Of a stretch of DNA of 64,000 nt, positions 31,726-41,521 are shown in pieces. Both the position numbers and the translations under genes were made by a program. Origin of the DNA: Chryseobacterium lacus (GTDB lineage: Bacteria > Bacteroidota > Bacteroidia > Flavobacteriales > Weeksellaceae). The stretch lies in assembly GCF_003336205.1 (NCBI RefSeq), contig NZ_QPIE01000003.1, positions 186,001 through 250,000 of the forward strand, written 5' to 3'. The notes below the pieces were generated by a model, which saw nothing but the letters and a program-made list of their open reading frames with translations, ran no database searches and had not been told where the DNA came from. Each line of letters opens with the position of its first letter. Positions within the stretch are counted from its first letter, which is position 1.

Positions 31726-32262
31726 ATGGCATCGGAAAGTTTAATTCAGAAACTCAACGAAACGATTGAAAACATCCCGGATTTCCCGATTCCCGGAATA
31801 CTGTTCAGAGATATCACGCCCATATTTTTAAATTCTAAACTGTATGAAGAAGTTATCGAGGATCTTGCCCATTTCAGTCGCGGAAAAGTAGATGCCGTTT
31901 GCGGAATTGAAAGTCGCGGTTTCCTTTTTGGTATCGCTATCGCTGTTGCGCTGGACGTACCTTTCGTTCTCATCAGAAAGAAAGGAAAACTGCCACCTCC
32001 GTTTATTTCTGAAAAATATGAGCTGGAATACGGAACGTCCGAAGTAGAAATGCGGGAAGGACACCTGAAACCCGGGCAAAGAGTGCTGATTCATGACGAT
32101 CTTTTGGCCACAGGAGGAACCACAGAAGCAGCAGCGAGACTGGTAGAAAAACAAGGCGCAAAAGCGACACAGTTCAGCTTCTTAATTGGGCTGAATGGTC
32201 TGAAAGGTGAACAAAAATTAGAACAATTCAACGCAGAAATCTATAAAATATTGACATTCTGA
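31726..32262 (+). CDS. apt: Adenine phosphoribosyltransferase
   Basis: Apt salvages adenine to AMP using PRPP. The 178-residue product has normal length. It shows the N-terminal FPIPGILFRDITPIF motif, VCGIESRGFLFG, the flexible-loop segment RKKGKLPPP, and the PRPP loop VLIHDDLLATGGTTEAAARL. It starts one base after the preceding lipoprotein gene, an unusual partner for a purine-salvage enzyme. Confidence 0.97.
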   Translation: MASESLIQKLNETIENIPDFPIPGILFRDITPIFLNSKLYEEVIEDLAHFSRGKVDAVCGIESRGFLFGIAIAVALDVPFVLIRKKGKLPPPFISEKYELEYGTSEVEMREGHLKPGQRVLIHDDLLATGGTTEAAARLVEKQGAKATQFSFLIGLNGLKGEQKLEQFNAEIYKILTF

Positions 32263-36741: not shown

Positions 36742-37269
36742 ATGAGTCTGTATTTCATTGCAGTCGAGCCTCATAGCGAATTGATCGACAAAATCCGGGC
36801 GATACAAAAAGATTTTGTCGAGCGGTTTTCTTCATCCAAATCGTACAGAAATTTTCCACATATAACGATTATCCCGCCTTTTTCTCTTCATGAGGATGAA
36901 GAAACAGCACTCATTTCAAAATTTAAGAACATTTCTCTTACAATAAAACATTTTAAGATATATCTGAATGGCTTTGGATCGTTTCCTCATTCTAAAAACC
37001 CGGCGATTTTCATTAAACCTGAAAATGAATCTGAACTCACAGCACTTTTTAACGAAATAAATTCAGCGATGAAAAGTTTCGACTACAAAGTTTCCAAATT
37101 TCGTCCGCATCTTACCGTGGCATACCGCGATTTGTCACCGGAAAACTACCGAAAATCATGGATGGAATACCAAACGAAGACCTTTCGGGATCGCTTTGAA
37201 GTGAATGCTGTGAAACTCTATAAGCATGACGGCAGGAAATGGAACGAAATAGCATCTAAAATATTGTAA
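36742..37269 (+). CDS. 2'-5' RNA ligase / 2H phosphoesterase family protein
   Basis: The 175-residue product carries two HxT motifs: FPHITIIPPF near residue 35 and FRPHLTVAYRD near residue 122, as in the 2H phosphoesterase superfamily (LigT, ThpR). These enzymes act on 2',5' or cyclic phosphodiesters in RNA and nucleotides. It is probably in one transcript with the zinc metallopeptidase gene and ends in a shared terminator. Confidence 0.9.
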   Translation: MSLYFIAVEPHSELIDKIRAIQKDFVERFSSSKSYRNFPHITIIPPFSLHEDEETALISKFKNISLTIKHFKIYLNGFGSFPHSKNPAIFIKPENESELTALFNEINSAMKSFDYKVSKFRPHLTVAYRDLSPENYRKSWMEYQTKTFRDRFEVNAVKLYKHDGRKWNEIASKIL

Positions 37270-37305: not shown

Positions 37306-38982
37306 TTATTGATCTGATGATTTTAAAATCTTTTCAAGAATTCTCAGCGTAATCATGTATGTGGGTTTTACTCCGGTAAGGCCTAATCCACCGGAGGATA
37401 ATGTGGCTCCGGTTTCCAAAGGATTGTCGGAAGCATAATAGCCGTAGCAGAGAAAAAGATCGGGGGAAATATGATGTCTGATACTGGAAGCCACCTGTAT
37501 CGCTTTTTGGTAATGAGCTCCTTCCATTTCCAGTCCGACGGCTTTCCATGTTGTATTCATGAAATAAGTGAGAATGTCTCTATTCTGAAGTGAAGTTCCC
37601 AGAACCGTAATCATTGGCCCTTCAAACGCTTTTATTTCATTATCTTCAAAATCTTCCAGCTTCAAAGCGTTTTCAAAAACATAATTATCTGCAGTTCCTT
37701 CAAAAATATGAGAAGTCGGAATCATAATATCACCTTTAGCTCCGGTCAGAATTCCTGCTTTTCCCATAATGGAGATGGATTTCACGTGCATCGTGTACAC
37801 TTCCTGATTGTGTTCATAAGGTCGAAGCAATTCGTCCATCACCTCAAAAGCTTGTTCGCCGAAGGCGTAATCAAATACCAAAATCACATCATCTCCGCTG
37901 TATTTTATGCCGGAAAAAGGAGTATTCTTCAGGTTGGTTTTGCTCAAATCAATGATCTGAACATCAATATTACTTCCGCTGTCATCATTAATATATATAA
38001 GTCCAGATTTTAACGAATGATCTAGAACTTTTTCCTGAAGTGTTTTTTTATTGCTTATTTCTTCATAAAGTGAATAATCCACTTCCTTGGTAGCACTTTT
38101 TCCGATCGCATCATTGGCAAACAGCATGTTTTTCACAGAATGCATATTCGCTGAAATGATGTGTAGATTTCGCATTTGGAGATCATTCTCAGCCAAAACT
38201 TCTTTCACTTTATTGGCCCATTTTTCCCCGAAAAGATGATGTCCGACACGCTCTCTCAAAACAGCACTGAAGAAAATTTCCCGTTCGCGGTTGCCTTTCA
38301 TGTCCTCTAAGCTTACATTTCCGAGATAGTAAATAATCTTAAAAAGCCTGTCTGGATTTTTGTCGCTTCCGAAATTGTTATAAGCATTCAGGACTTCATC
38401 AAAAGTTCTTCCCAAAAGTGATGACAGATGAATGAGTGCTACTTCTTTTTCTTTTCGGCTCATTTTCCGTTCGCCTTTGGCTACTTCCTCTATAATTCTC
38501 CACGTTCGGGTGGGCTTATAATTCTCATCTTTATTGTGGGCTAATTCCCGTATTTTATCTGCTTCTATATAAAGAAATGTAAGATGGGTAAGAATATCGT
38601 AAATTTCTGAACGGCCGAGTAGAACCTCAATATTCATCTGGTGTTCATCAATTCTGTAGCAGTTTCTTCGTCTTTTTTTAGGAACGATGATTTCAAAACT
38701 GCCCTTTTCAAAACCTTCGTCGGAAGTGAGGTGCACAAAAGCGGTTTCCTCTATCCCTTCCGGAAGCCTGTCCAGGACGTATAGCAAACCATCAAGTTCT
38801 ATCTTATTGGGAATGCTCATAGATCCGTAGATTTCAGGAGAAATCGTCATGAGCAGGTTTCTTATTGTTTCTCCGGAAACGCCTCCCGGTTTGAAGAATC
38901 CTCTATAGAAGAGGTGTCGCATGGTTACATACAGCCTTTCGATGGCTTCTGTGGTTTCGCGCGCCCGTAAGTTTGTTGCCAT
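37306..38982 (-). CDS. Large conserved protein with nucleoside-phosphorylase-like C-terminal half
   Basis: The 558-residue cytosolic protein matches, from memory, a Bacteroidota family of unknown function (DUF6909). The N-terminal 350 residues are helical and charged with no recognised motif. The C-terminal part has three elements in the order seen in the PNP/UDP phosphorylase fold. They are IMGKAGILTGAKGDIMIPTS (residues about 405-423), GLEMEGA with Glu487 in the place of the catalytic-pocket glutamate, and YYASDNP with Asp519 in the place of the catalytic aspartate. The order and the SD and MEG residues fit an MTA/SAH nucleosidase or phosphorylase, but overall identity is low. It is a single gene with its own promoter box. 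Confidence 0.8.
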   Translation of the reverse strand: MATNLRARETTEAIERLYVTMRHLFYRGFFKPGGVSGETIRNLLMTISPEIYGSMSIPNKIELDGLLYVLDRLPEGIEETAFVHLTSDEGFEKGSFEIIVPKKRRRNCYRIDEHQMNIEVLLGRSEIYDILTHLTFLYIEADKIRELAHNKDENYKPTRTWRIIEEVAKGERKMSRKEKEVALIHLSSLLGRTFDEVLNAYNNFGSDKNPDRLFKIIYYLGNVSLEDMKGNREREIFFSAVLRERVGHHLFGEKWANKVKEVLAENDLQMRNLHIISANMHSVKNMLFANDAIGKSATKEVDYSLYEEISNKKTLQEKVLDHSLKSGLIYINDDSGSNIDVQIIDLSKTNLKNTPFSGIKYSGDDVILVFDYAFGEQAFEVMDELLRPYEHNQEVYTMHVKSISIMGKAGILTGAKGDIMIPTSHIFEGTADNYVFENALKLEDFEDNEIKAFEGPMITVLGTSLQNRDILTYFMNTTWKAVGLEMEGAHYQKAIQVASSIRHHISPDLFLCYGYYASDNPLETGATLSSGGLGLTGVKPTYMITLRILEKILKSSDQ

Positions 38983-39023
38983 AAATTATGTGCGTATTTG
39001 TTGAATATATAATTAATGACACA

Positions 39024-39031
39024 CAAAGTTA
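39024..39031 (-). promoter_or_regulatory. Putative -7 box (TAACTTTG) of the phosphorylase-like gene
   Basis: TAACTTTG on the minus strand lies about 42 bases before the ATG at 38982. Confidence 0.45.
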
Positions 39032-39292
39032 ACGAATTAAAATTGATTTGATTTCAAACTTCAAAAGTTCTTCGGAGTCATAAAACAAAAGTAAGGAATT
39101 TCAGCTTTTACAAATAATAGTTTCCGCTTTATTATAAATGGTGCTGGCGTAAAAAAATAGTCTTGTGAGCTTTTGTCATATCTTTTTAGATTACCCTGTG
39201 AATTTGGGGGTGGTTTTTTATTTAATTATGTTAATTTTAGTCATTACCCTAAAATTTTTGATGCATTTTAATTTTTGAACATATAAATAATT

Positions 39293-39300
39293 TAAATTTG
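39293..39300 (+). promoter_or_regulatory. Putative -7 box (TAAATTTG) of glnN
   Basis: TAAATTTG lies 19 bases before the glnN ATG. A TTG 15 bases upstream is a weak -33 candidate. Confidence 0.55.
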
Positions 39301-39319
39301 CACAATAAATCTTCATCTT

Positions 39320-41521
39320 ATGTCAACATTACGATTCAAAGCTTTAGCCGAACTTCCTTTCAGAAATTATAGAAAGGACAACGCTGTAGATGTGCCAAAA
39401 AAACTTTCTGAACTATTCTGCGAGAATGTTTTTTCAGAAGAAACTATGCGGAATTATCTTACTAAAGAAGCGTTCACTTCAATACAGGATGCTATTAAAA
39501 GAGGTACAAAAACGCCAAGGAATATCGCAGATCAAATTGCAGTCTCCATGAAAGACTGGGCATTATCCAAAGGAGCAACACACTATACCCATTGGTTTCA
39601 ACCTTTAACGGGTACGACAGCAGAGAAACACGACAGTTTTTTCACTCCTTTTGAAAGCGATCGGGCTATTGAAAGATTTAACGGAAGTATGTTGATACAG
39701 CAGGAACCGGATGCATCGTCGTTTCCTAACGGAGGTATCAGAAATACGTTTGAAGCAAGAGGTTATACAGCTTGGGATCCTACTTCTCCAGCATTTATTA
39801 TTGGAACAACGCTTTGTATTCCCTCCATTTTTATTTCGTACACCGGGGAAACGCTTGATTACAAAACACCGCTTCTCAGAGCACTTCAGGCAGTAGATGT
39901 AGCCGCTACAGAGGTTTGTAAAGCATATTTTGATAAAAATGTAACGAAGGTAACAGCAACTTTAGGTTGGGAACAAGAGTATTTTCTCATTGATACTGCA
40001 TTGTATCAGTCCCGGCCGGATCTTGTGTTCACCGGGAGAACATTATTGGGACACGCTCCGGCTAAAGGACAGCAATTAGACGACCATTACTTTGGCTCCA
40101 TCCCAACACGAGTGATGAATTTCATGAAGGAACTGGAAATCGAATGCATGAAACTGGGAATTCCTGTCACAACAAGGCATAATGAGGTAGCACCAAATCA
40201 GTTTGAGCTGGCGCCGATGTTTGAAGAGACCAATGTGGCAGTGGATCATAACTCTTTACTCATGGATATTATGGCAAGGGTGGCTCATAAACATCACTTT
40301 CATATTCTTTTTCATGAAAAACCTTTCAAAGGGGTGAATGGAAGTGGGAAACATAATAACTGGTCGCTGGCCACAGATACTGGAGAAAACCTTCTTAGCC
40401 CCGGGAAAAATCCCAAAAAGAATTTACAGTTCCTCACCTTTTTCGTTAATTCCCTAAAAGCAGTTTCCGAATATTCTGATCTTTTGCGAGCCAGCATCGC
40501 ATCCGCAAATAATGATCACAGACTGGGAGCTAACGAAGCGCCGCCTGCTATTATCTCAGCATTTATCGGAAGTCAGCTGTACGGCGTTCTGGAAGAACTA
40601 GAAAAAGTAACTGACGGGAAACTTTCCCCAGAAGAAAAAACAGAATTGAAACTGAACGTAGTGGGTAAAATTCCTGAGATCTTACTGGATAATACAGACA
40701 GGAACAGAACCTCACCTTTTGCCTTCACAGGAAATAAGTTTGAATTTCGAGCAGTGGGTTCTTCTGCCAATTGTGCTGAACCAATGACGGTGCTAAACGC
40801 TATCGTGGCAAAGCAGTTGAAAACTTTCAAATCGGAAGTAGATCAATTGATAGATAATAAAAACCTAAAAAAGGACGAAGCCATATTCAATATTCTTAGA
40901 GAATACATCAAGGAGTGCAAACACATTATGTTTGAAGGTGACGGATATTCTGAAGACTGGGCGATAGAAGCAAAAAAAAGAGGCCTCAATAATCTGAGAA
41001 CGACGCCTGAAGCTCTGAAACAAGAGCTCGATCCAAGGTTTATTGCGCTTTATGAAGAGTTGGGAATTTACAATCATAGAGAATTTGAAGCTCGAAATGA
41101 AATTAAGCTTGAAAAATATGCAACTGTTATTGATATTGAAGCGAAAGTACTTTCAGATATTGCCAGAAATCATATAATTCCTGCCGCCTTGAACTATCAG
41201 AACAGACTGATTGACAATGTTAAAGGGTTAAAAGAAATTTTTAAAGATGAGGAATTTCAAGTTTTGGCCAATGAACAAATGGAGTTGATAAGGGAGATTT
41301 CAAAGAACGTGTCGCAGATTAAAACTGGAGTAGACGAACTTTTGGAGGCCAAAGAAAGAGCGAGGAGTATGAATGCAGGCCAACAGCAGGCTGAGATCTA
41401 TTGCAATGAAGTAAAACCGAAATTTGATAGAATCAGGGAAGCGAGTGATGCGCTGGAAATGATGGTGGACGATGAACTCTGGCCGATGACGAAATACAGA
41501 GAATTGCTTTTCACAAGATAA
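39320..41521 (+). CDS. glnN: Type III glutamine synthetase
   Basis: GSIII assimilates ammonium by ATP-dependent amidation of glutamate. The 733-residue length is diagnostic of the GSIII class of Bacteroidota and cyanobacteria, against about 450 for GSI. Visible are the GSIII N-terminal THYTHWFQPLTGTTAEKHD, the GWEQEYFLID metal-ligand motif, ARHNEVAPNQFELAP-like TTRHNEVAPNQFELAP, NGSGKHNNWSL and NRTSPFAFTGNKFEFR. The C-terminal extension is coiled-coil-like. It stands alone between a TAAATTTG box and a strong terminator. Confidence 0.97.
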   Translation: MSTLRFKALAELPFRNYRKDNAVDVPKKLSELFCENVFSEETMRNYLTKEAFTSIQDAIKRGTKTPRNIADQIAVSMKDWALSKGATHYTHWFQPLTGTTAEKHDSFFTPFESDRAIERFNGSMLIQQEPDASSFPNGGIRNTFEARGYTAWDPTSPAFIIGTTLCIPSIFISYTGETLDYKTPLLRALQAVDVAATEVCKAYFDKNVTKVTATLGWEQEYFLIDTALYQSRPDLVFTGRTLLGHAPAKGQQLDDHYFGSIPTRVMNFMKELEIECMKLGIPVTTRHNEVAPNQFELAPMFEETNVAVDHNSLLMDIMARVAHKHHFHILFHEKPFKGVNGSGKHNNWSLATDTGENLLSPGKNPKKNLQFLTFFVNSLKAVSEYSDLLRASIASANNDHRLGANEAPPAIISAFIGSQLYGVLEELEKVTDGKLSPEEKTELKLNVVGKIPEILLDNTDRNRTSPFAFTGNKFEFRAVGSSANCAEPMTVLNAIVAKQLKTFKSEVDQLIDNKNLKKDEAIFNILREYIKECKHIMFEGDGYSEDWAIEAKKRGLNNLRTTPEALKQELDPRFIALYEELGIYNHREFEARNEIKLEKYATVIDIEAKVLSDIARNHIIPAALNYQNRLIDNVKGLKEIFKDEEFQVLANEQMELIREISKNVSQIKTGVDELLEAKERARSMNAGQQQAEIYCNEVKPKFDRIREASDALEMMVDDELWPMTKYRELLFTR

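Follow-up and report, generated by a model that had tools for sequence, protein, structure and literature searches.

On balance, the DUF6909 gene of Chryseobacterium lacus described here appears to encode a two-domain purine-nucleotide nucleosidase, most likely one acting on AMP, which would stand in place of the AMN-like protein TIGR01721. The gene lies in a stretch of 64,000 nucleotides, which is called the window below. Our computational analysis supports three points: judged by its sequence the protein belongs to the PNP/UDP superfamily, its catalytic-site residues do not vary among homologues, and in the sampled genomes it and AMN-like genes exclude each other. The assignment to the fold family is well supported and functional equivalence to the AMN-like protein moderately so, while the exact substrate is one that we infer. 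The features used in the text are the following.

37306..38982, minus strand: DUF6909 (PF21850) gene, 558 aa, with its stop codon at 37306-37308
38053..38982, minus strand: N-terminal domain, residues 1 to about 310 (conservation in 52 representatives)
37315..38010, minus strand: putative C-terminal PNP/UDP-like domain, residues about 325-556 (PF01048 searches, MAFFT, hhalign)
37711..37764, minus strand: GKAGILTGAKGDIMIPTS, residues 407-424 (alignment with AMN-like proteins)
37516..37536, minus strand: GLEMEGA, residues 483-489 (alignment and conservation)
37420..37440, minus strand: YYASDNP, residues 515-521 (alignment and conservation)
38983..39319, minus strand: intergenic region of 337 bases between DUF6909 and the divergent gene, presumably of glutamine-synthetase type (promoter pattern match only)

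An earlier note on this DNA had described a 558-residue protein of an unknown family, carrying the three motifs listed above in that order. The open reading frame is real, and to it we add the minus strand, which had been left unstated; the motifs are present at the positions given, and the numbering of Glu487 and Asp519 was correct. The family itself is already catalogued, since the protein is a full-length member of Pfam DUF6909 (PF21850; 196 bits against a cut-off of 27, E 1e-57, in two stretches), with the Pfam entry reading "Family of unknown function". The name DUF6909 was not mentioned in the literature searched; to the Pfam description we add here a PNP-like domain and the mutual exclusion with AMN-like genes.

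The homologue set comprised 160 loci and 157 distinct proteins, nearly all of 550-615 aa, from several Bacteroidia families and with identities down to about 51%. Nearly all positions in the claimed motifs are invariant across these homologues: G407, K408, A409, G410, E485, M486, E487, S518 and D519 are identical in 157 of 157 distinct proteins, and D418 is kept in 156, so that the conservation of Glu487 and Asp519 that had been proposed as a check holds throughout. No relative of DUF6909 was found in the viral contigs searched, nor among solved structures by sequence and profile searches, and searches of PHROGs and PADLOC gave chance-level matches only. NCBIfam likewise gave no match to the 558-residue protein, including TIGR01721 (cut-off 307.2 bits) and TIGR01704.

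Against this protein, the PNP_UDP_1 profile (PF01048) gave a weak match (E 0.067, 13 bits) that falls below the curated cut-off of 25.1. When 51 DUF6909 members were searched, 24 of them were matched by PNP_UDP_1, with a best E of 0.0015, and this was the only family apart from DUF6909 itself to match many members, the others matching one or two. A six-frame PF01048 search at E up to 10, run on 25 whole genomes of which 24 were known DUF6909 carriers, yielded 12 sub-threshold matches besides true PNP proteins; the DUF6909 gene accounted for 9 of them, all within profile positions 65-178. The profile-profile comparison envisaged in the earlier note was made with hhalign, where the C-terminal domain reached P 0.0009 and a score of 30.1 against a broad alignment of the PNP superfamily, compared with P 0.03 and a score of 20.9 for the best of 50 unrelated decoy families. 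Narrow alignments gave weak results with hhalign, both for the DUF6909 C-terminal domain against AMN-like proteins (P 0.006) and for the true pair of AMN-like and type-I PNP (P 0.1), and a reverse search of 20 AMN-bearing genomes with the C-terminal domain profile did not find the AMN-like proteins.

In an unguided MAFFT alignment, GKAG, GDIMIP, EGTADNY, EME and SDNP of DUF6909 fell in register with GKCGG, GDLILP, GEGTSNDY, DME and SDQP of the AMN-like proteins, respectively, and in a multiple alignment all motifs were in register with AMN-like proteins, E. coli Amn and E. coli MTA/SAH nucleosidase. Residues 407-424 (GKAGILTGAKGDIMIPTS) align with GKCGGLKKKNKLGDLILP of AMN-like proteins, and EGTADNY follows at residues 428-434. 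The ordered motifs GxxG..GD, (E/D)ME and SD are thus all present in DUF6909, invariant or nearly so. Two AlphaFold2 models, built from homologues about 80% identical or more, had mean pLDDT values of 53 and 40, and a Foldseek search with the first, low-confidence model (pLDDT 53) returned nothing significant, although 19 of the 50 matches listed were PNP or uridine phosphorylase. Because these models are poor, we infer the PNP fold from sequence. A PNP-like C-terminal half, as first suggested in the earlier note, is supported for residues about 325-558 by three sequence tests and the in-register alignment, beyond what chance would give, and we are highly confident that the last 230 or so residues of DUF6909 form a diverged member of the PNP/UDP superfamily.

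Across distant Amn homologues, the only conserved active-site residues are M404, E405 and D428 (PMC9584410). In DUF6909, M486 and E487 share alignment columns with E. coli Amn M404 and E405, and D519 with its active-site D428; for R381, W383 and K436 (E. coli/Klebsiella Amn numbering) DUF6909 shows no clear counterparts, in stretches where the alignment is uncertain. The phosphorylase-type motif RxGSCG, which a PNP-like relative (L194) has, is missing from both DUF6909 and AMN-like proteins, which carry IMGKAG and FLGKCG, respectively, at that place. The Arg and Ser of RxGSCG bind phosphate in hexameric PNPs, and its replacement would make hydrolysis more likely than phosphorolysis for DUF6909.

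The N-terminal domain of about 310 residues is strongly conserved among 52 representatives and contains many Arg and His residues that are invariant or almost so; conserved positions include R22, H23, R27, PEIYG (49-53), R104/R106/R110, H133, H249, N279 and H281. No Pfam or NCBIfam family besides DUF6909 matched it consistently and no kinship to a known domain was found, while hhalign gave P 0.26 against the broad PNP alignment and no similarity to the N-terminal domain of E. coli Amn (P 0.67), on which ground its identification with that Amn domain was dropped. Of the proposal that a diverged nucleosidase or phosphorylase is fused to a helical domain, the PNP-like part stands by sequence, whereas the helical character of the N-terminal part is seen only in the low-confidence model, where it is largely helical.

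The phyletic distribution points to an AMP-nucleosidase role, which the earlier note did not contain. Counting AMN-like genes (TIGR01721) at E < 1e-20, we found DUF6909 in 24 and AMN-like genes in about 219 of 325 Bacteroidia genomes, never both, where 16.2 genomes with both would be expected. The same held for 395 genomes of the phylum (DUF6909 in 56, AMN-like in about 157, both in 0, expected 22.3) and for 59 relatives (41, 4 and 0). The corresponding hypergeometric p-values, 3e-13 and 3e-14, are plain values that ignore phylogeny; since related genomes do not count as independent samples, they make the exclusion look stronger than it is. Some DUF6909 genomes contain weak AMN matches (E 1e-4 to 1e-7), which we attribute to other PNP paralogues. 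MTA/SAH nucleosidase (TIGR01704), used as a control, was over its cut-off in 14 of the 325 genomes, and 3 of the 24 DUF6909 genomes carry it, with about 1 expected; exclusion is therefore not a general feature of PNP-family genes. Owing to this co-occurrence, a replacement of MTA/SAH nucleosidase by DUF6909 was dropped as a candidate, and MTA and SAH, which had been put forward for assay, become less likely substrates. In a tree of 57 DUF6909 proteins the branches follow family lines with one exception, family f114 being nested inside f3 (support 98/97), which suggests transfer of DUF6909 between families.

The gene stands alone in the window, convergent with a 175-aa gene (36742-37269) and divergent from the gene at 39320-41521, which we take to be of glutamine-synthetase type. 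The Bacteroidota promoter pattern TTG-N17/23-TAnnTTTG has two matches, as a pattern match only, 41 and 103 bases 5' of the DUF6909 start. The pairing with the divergent gene is kept at three Chryseobacterium/Kaistella loci (L002, L007, L020) and was not seen in the other families examined; at several Flavobacteriaceae-like loci (L153-L158, L147, L149), two conserved genes precede DUF6909, one of them presumably resembling a GH3-type protein. No tie to purine salvage or metabolism appeared in the neighbourhoods of the compared loci, and DUF6909 and AMN-like genes do not occupy the same locus in the genomes compared. An adenine phosphoribosyltransferase gene (TIGR01090, over cut-off) lies in the window at 31726-32262 on the plus strand, and such an enzyme would re-use the adenine released by an AMP nucleosidase. 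In other genomes its occurrence does not go along with that of DUF6909, and a joint role of the two was dropped since a clear apt gene is absent from many DUF6909 genomes. Neighbourhoods and apt distribution hence add no support for the replacement of the AMN-like protein. The host genome (2.4 Mb, near complete) has no match to TIGR01721 or TIGR01704, and its only clear PF01048 proteins are a type-I PNP and a uridine-phosphorylase-like protein.

The exclusion might arise from shared ancestry only, if a few lineages lost the AMN-like gene and happen to carry a functionally unrelated DUF6909. The DUF6909 genes group almost perfectly by family, which implies few independent events. However, both types occur in four families without ever sharing a sampled genome (DUF6909 and AMN-like, respectively: 4 and 4 in f22, 3 and 2 in f19, 4 and 1 in f70, 2 and 1 in f114), the split without overlap in f22 having by itself a chance of 1 in 70, and the control gene, MTA/SAH nucleosidase, shows no exclusion, so that we hold this explanation to be improbable.

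Invariant catalytic-site residues would equally be expected of an active nucleosidase or phosphorylase of the superfamily with another substrate (MTA/SAH, a modified nucleoside, a deoxynucleotide or an alarmone), the exclusion then reflecting some other linked difference; such a reading would also accommodate the unmatched AMN-specific phosphate and base residues (R381, W383, K436) and a large conserved N-terminal domain unlike that of Amn. We consider it rather unlikely, given that the exclusion with AMN-like genes persists inside four families and through one or more likely transfers, and that MTA/SAH nucleosidase, which few genomes of the class carry, occurs together with DUF6909 in 3 of them. 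Fusion of the PNP-like domain to a large conserved domain, in a family with no known activity, would also suit a domain that has lost catalysis and serves the N-terminal domain as a nucleotide sensor or binding module. Such loss seems very improbable to us: a dead catalytic site would not be expected to keep Glu487 and Asp519 unchanged in all 157 sequences, at identities as low as about 51%.

Under the AMP-nucleosidase reading that we prefer, the C-terminal PNP-fold domain would cleave the N-glycosidic bond in a purine nucleotide, AMP being the likeliest substrate, with adenine and ribose 5-phosphate as products, and DUF6909 would work by hydrolysis and not by phosphorolysis. Glu487 would hold the ribose hydroxyls and Asp519 would protonate the base, as happens in other members of the family, while the conserved Arg/His-rich N-terminal domain may supply the 5'-phosphate site or regulation. 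DUF6909 would in this way take the place of the AMN-like protein (TIGR01721) that most other Bacteroidia carry. We propose more tentatively that nucleosidases for AMP, or for purine nucleotides, could come in a second type, DUF6909, which is distinct from the first and whose N-terminal domain, itself without precedent, either contributes to the active site or governs it. This type could have displaced the standard enzyme in the groups of Flavobacterium and Chryseobacterium as well as in several other Bacteroidota families. Nearly universal in the Chryseobacterium group and its relatives, a gene hitherto without an assigned function thereby gains a testable enzymatic role. If true, the proposal would fill the missing AMP-nucleosidase step in DUF6909-bearing bacteria, offer a clear case of one enzyme replaced by a distant relative, and be directly assayable with named residues.

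Among known systems, MTA/SAH nucleosidase (TIGR01704) shares motifs with DUF6909, its GSAGG/GDIVV, VEMEAT and AISD aligning with those described above, but DUF6909 has no match to that family and the two occur together in some genomes. E. coli Amn (484 aa, with N-terminal and PNP domains) is likewise built of two domains, of which the C-terminal one is of PNP type, and the equivalents of its M404, E405 and D428 are kept in DUF6909, whereas R381, W383 and K436 are unmatched and the N-terminal domains are dissimilar. The AMN-like family TIGR01721, whose solved member 1ybf is called an AMP nucleosidase, differs in that DUF6909 is twice as long, gives no TIGR01721 match, is without the RxW of AMN-like proteins and has an unrelated N-terminal domain added; yet both have the superfamily motifs in common and in register, and their distributions are complementary.
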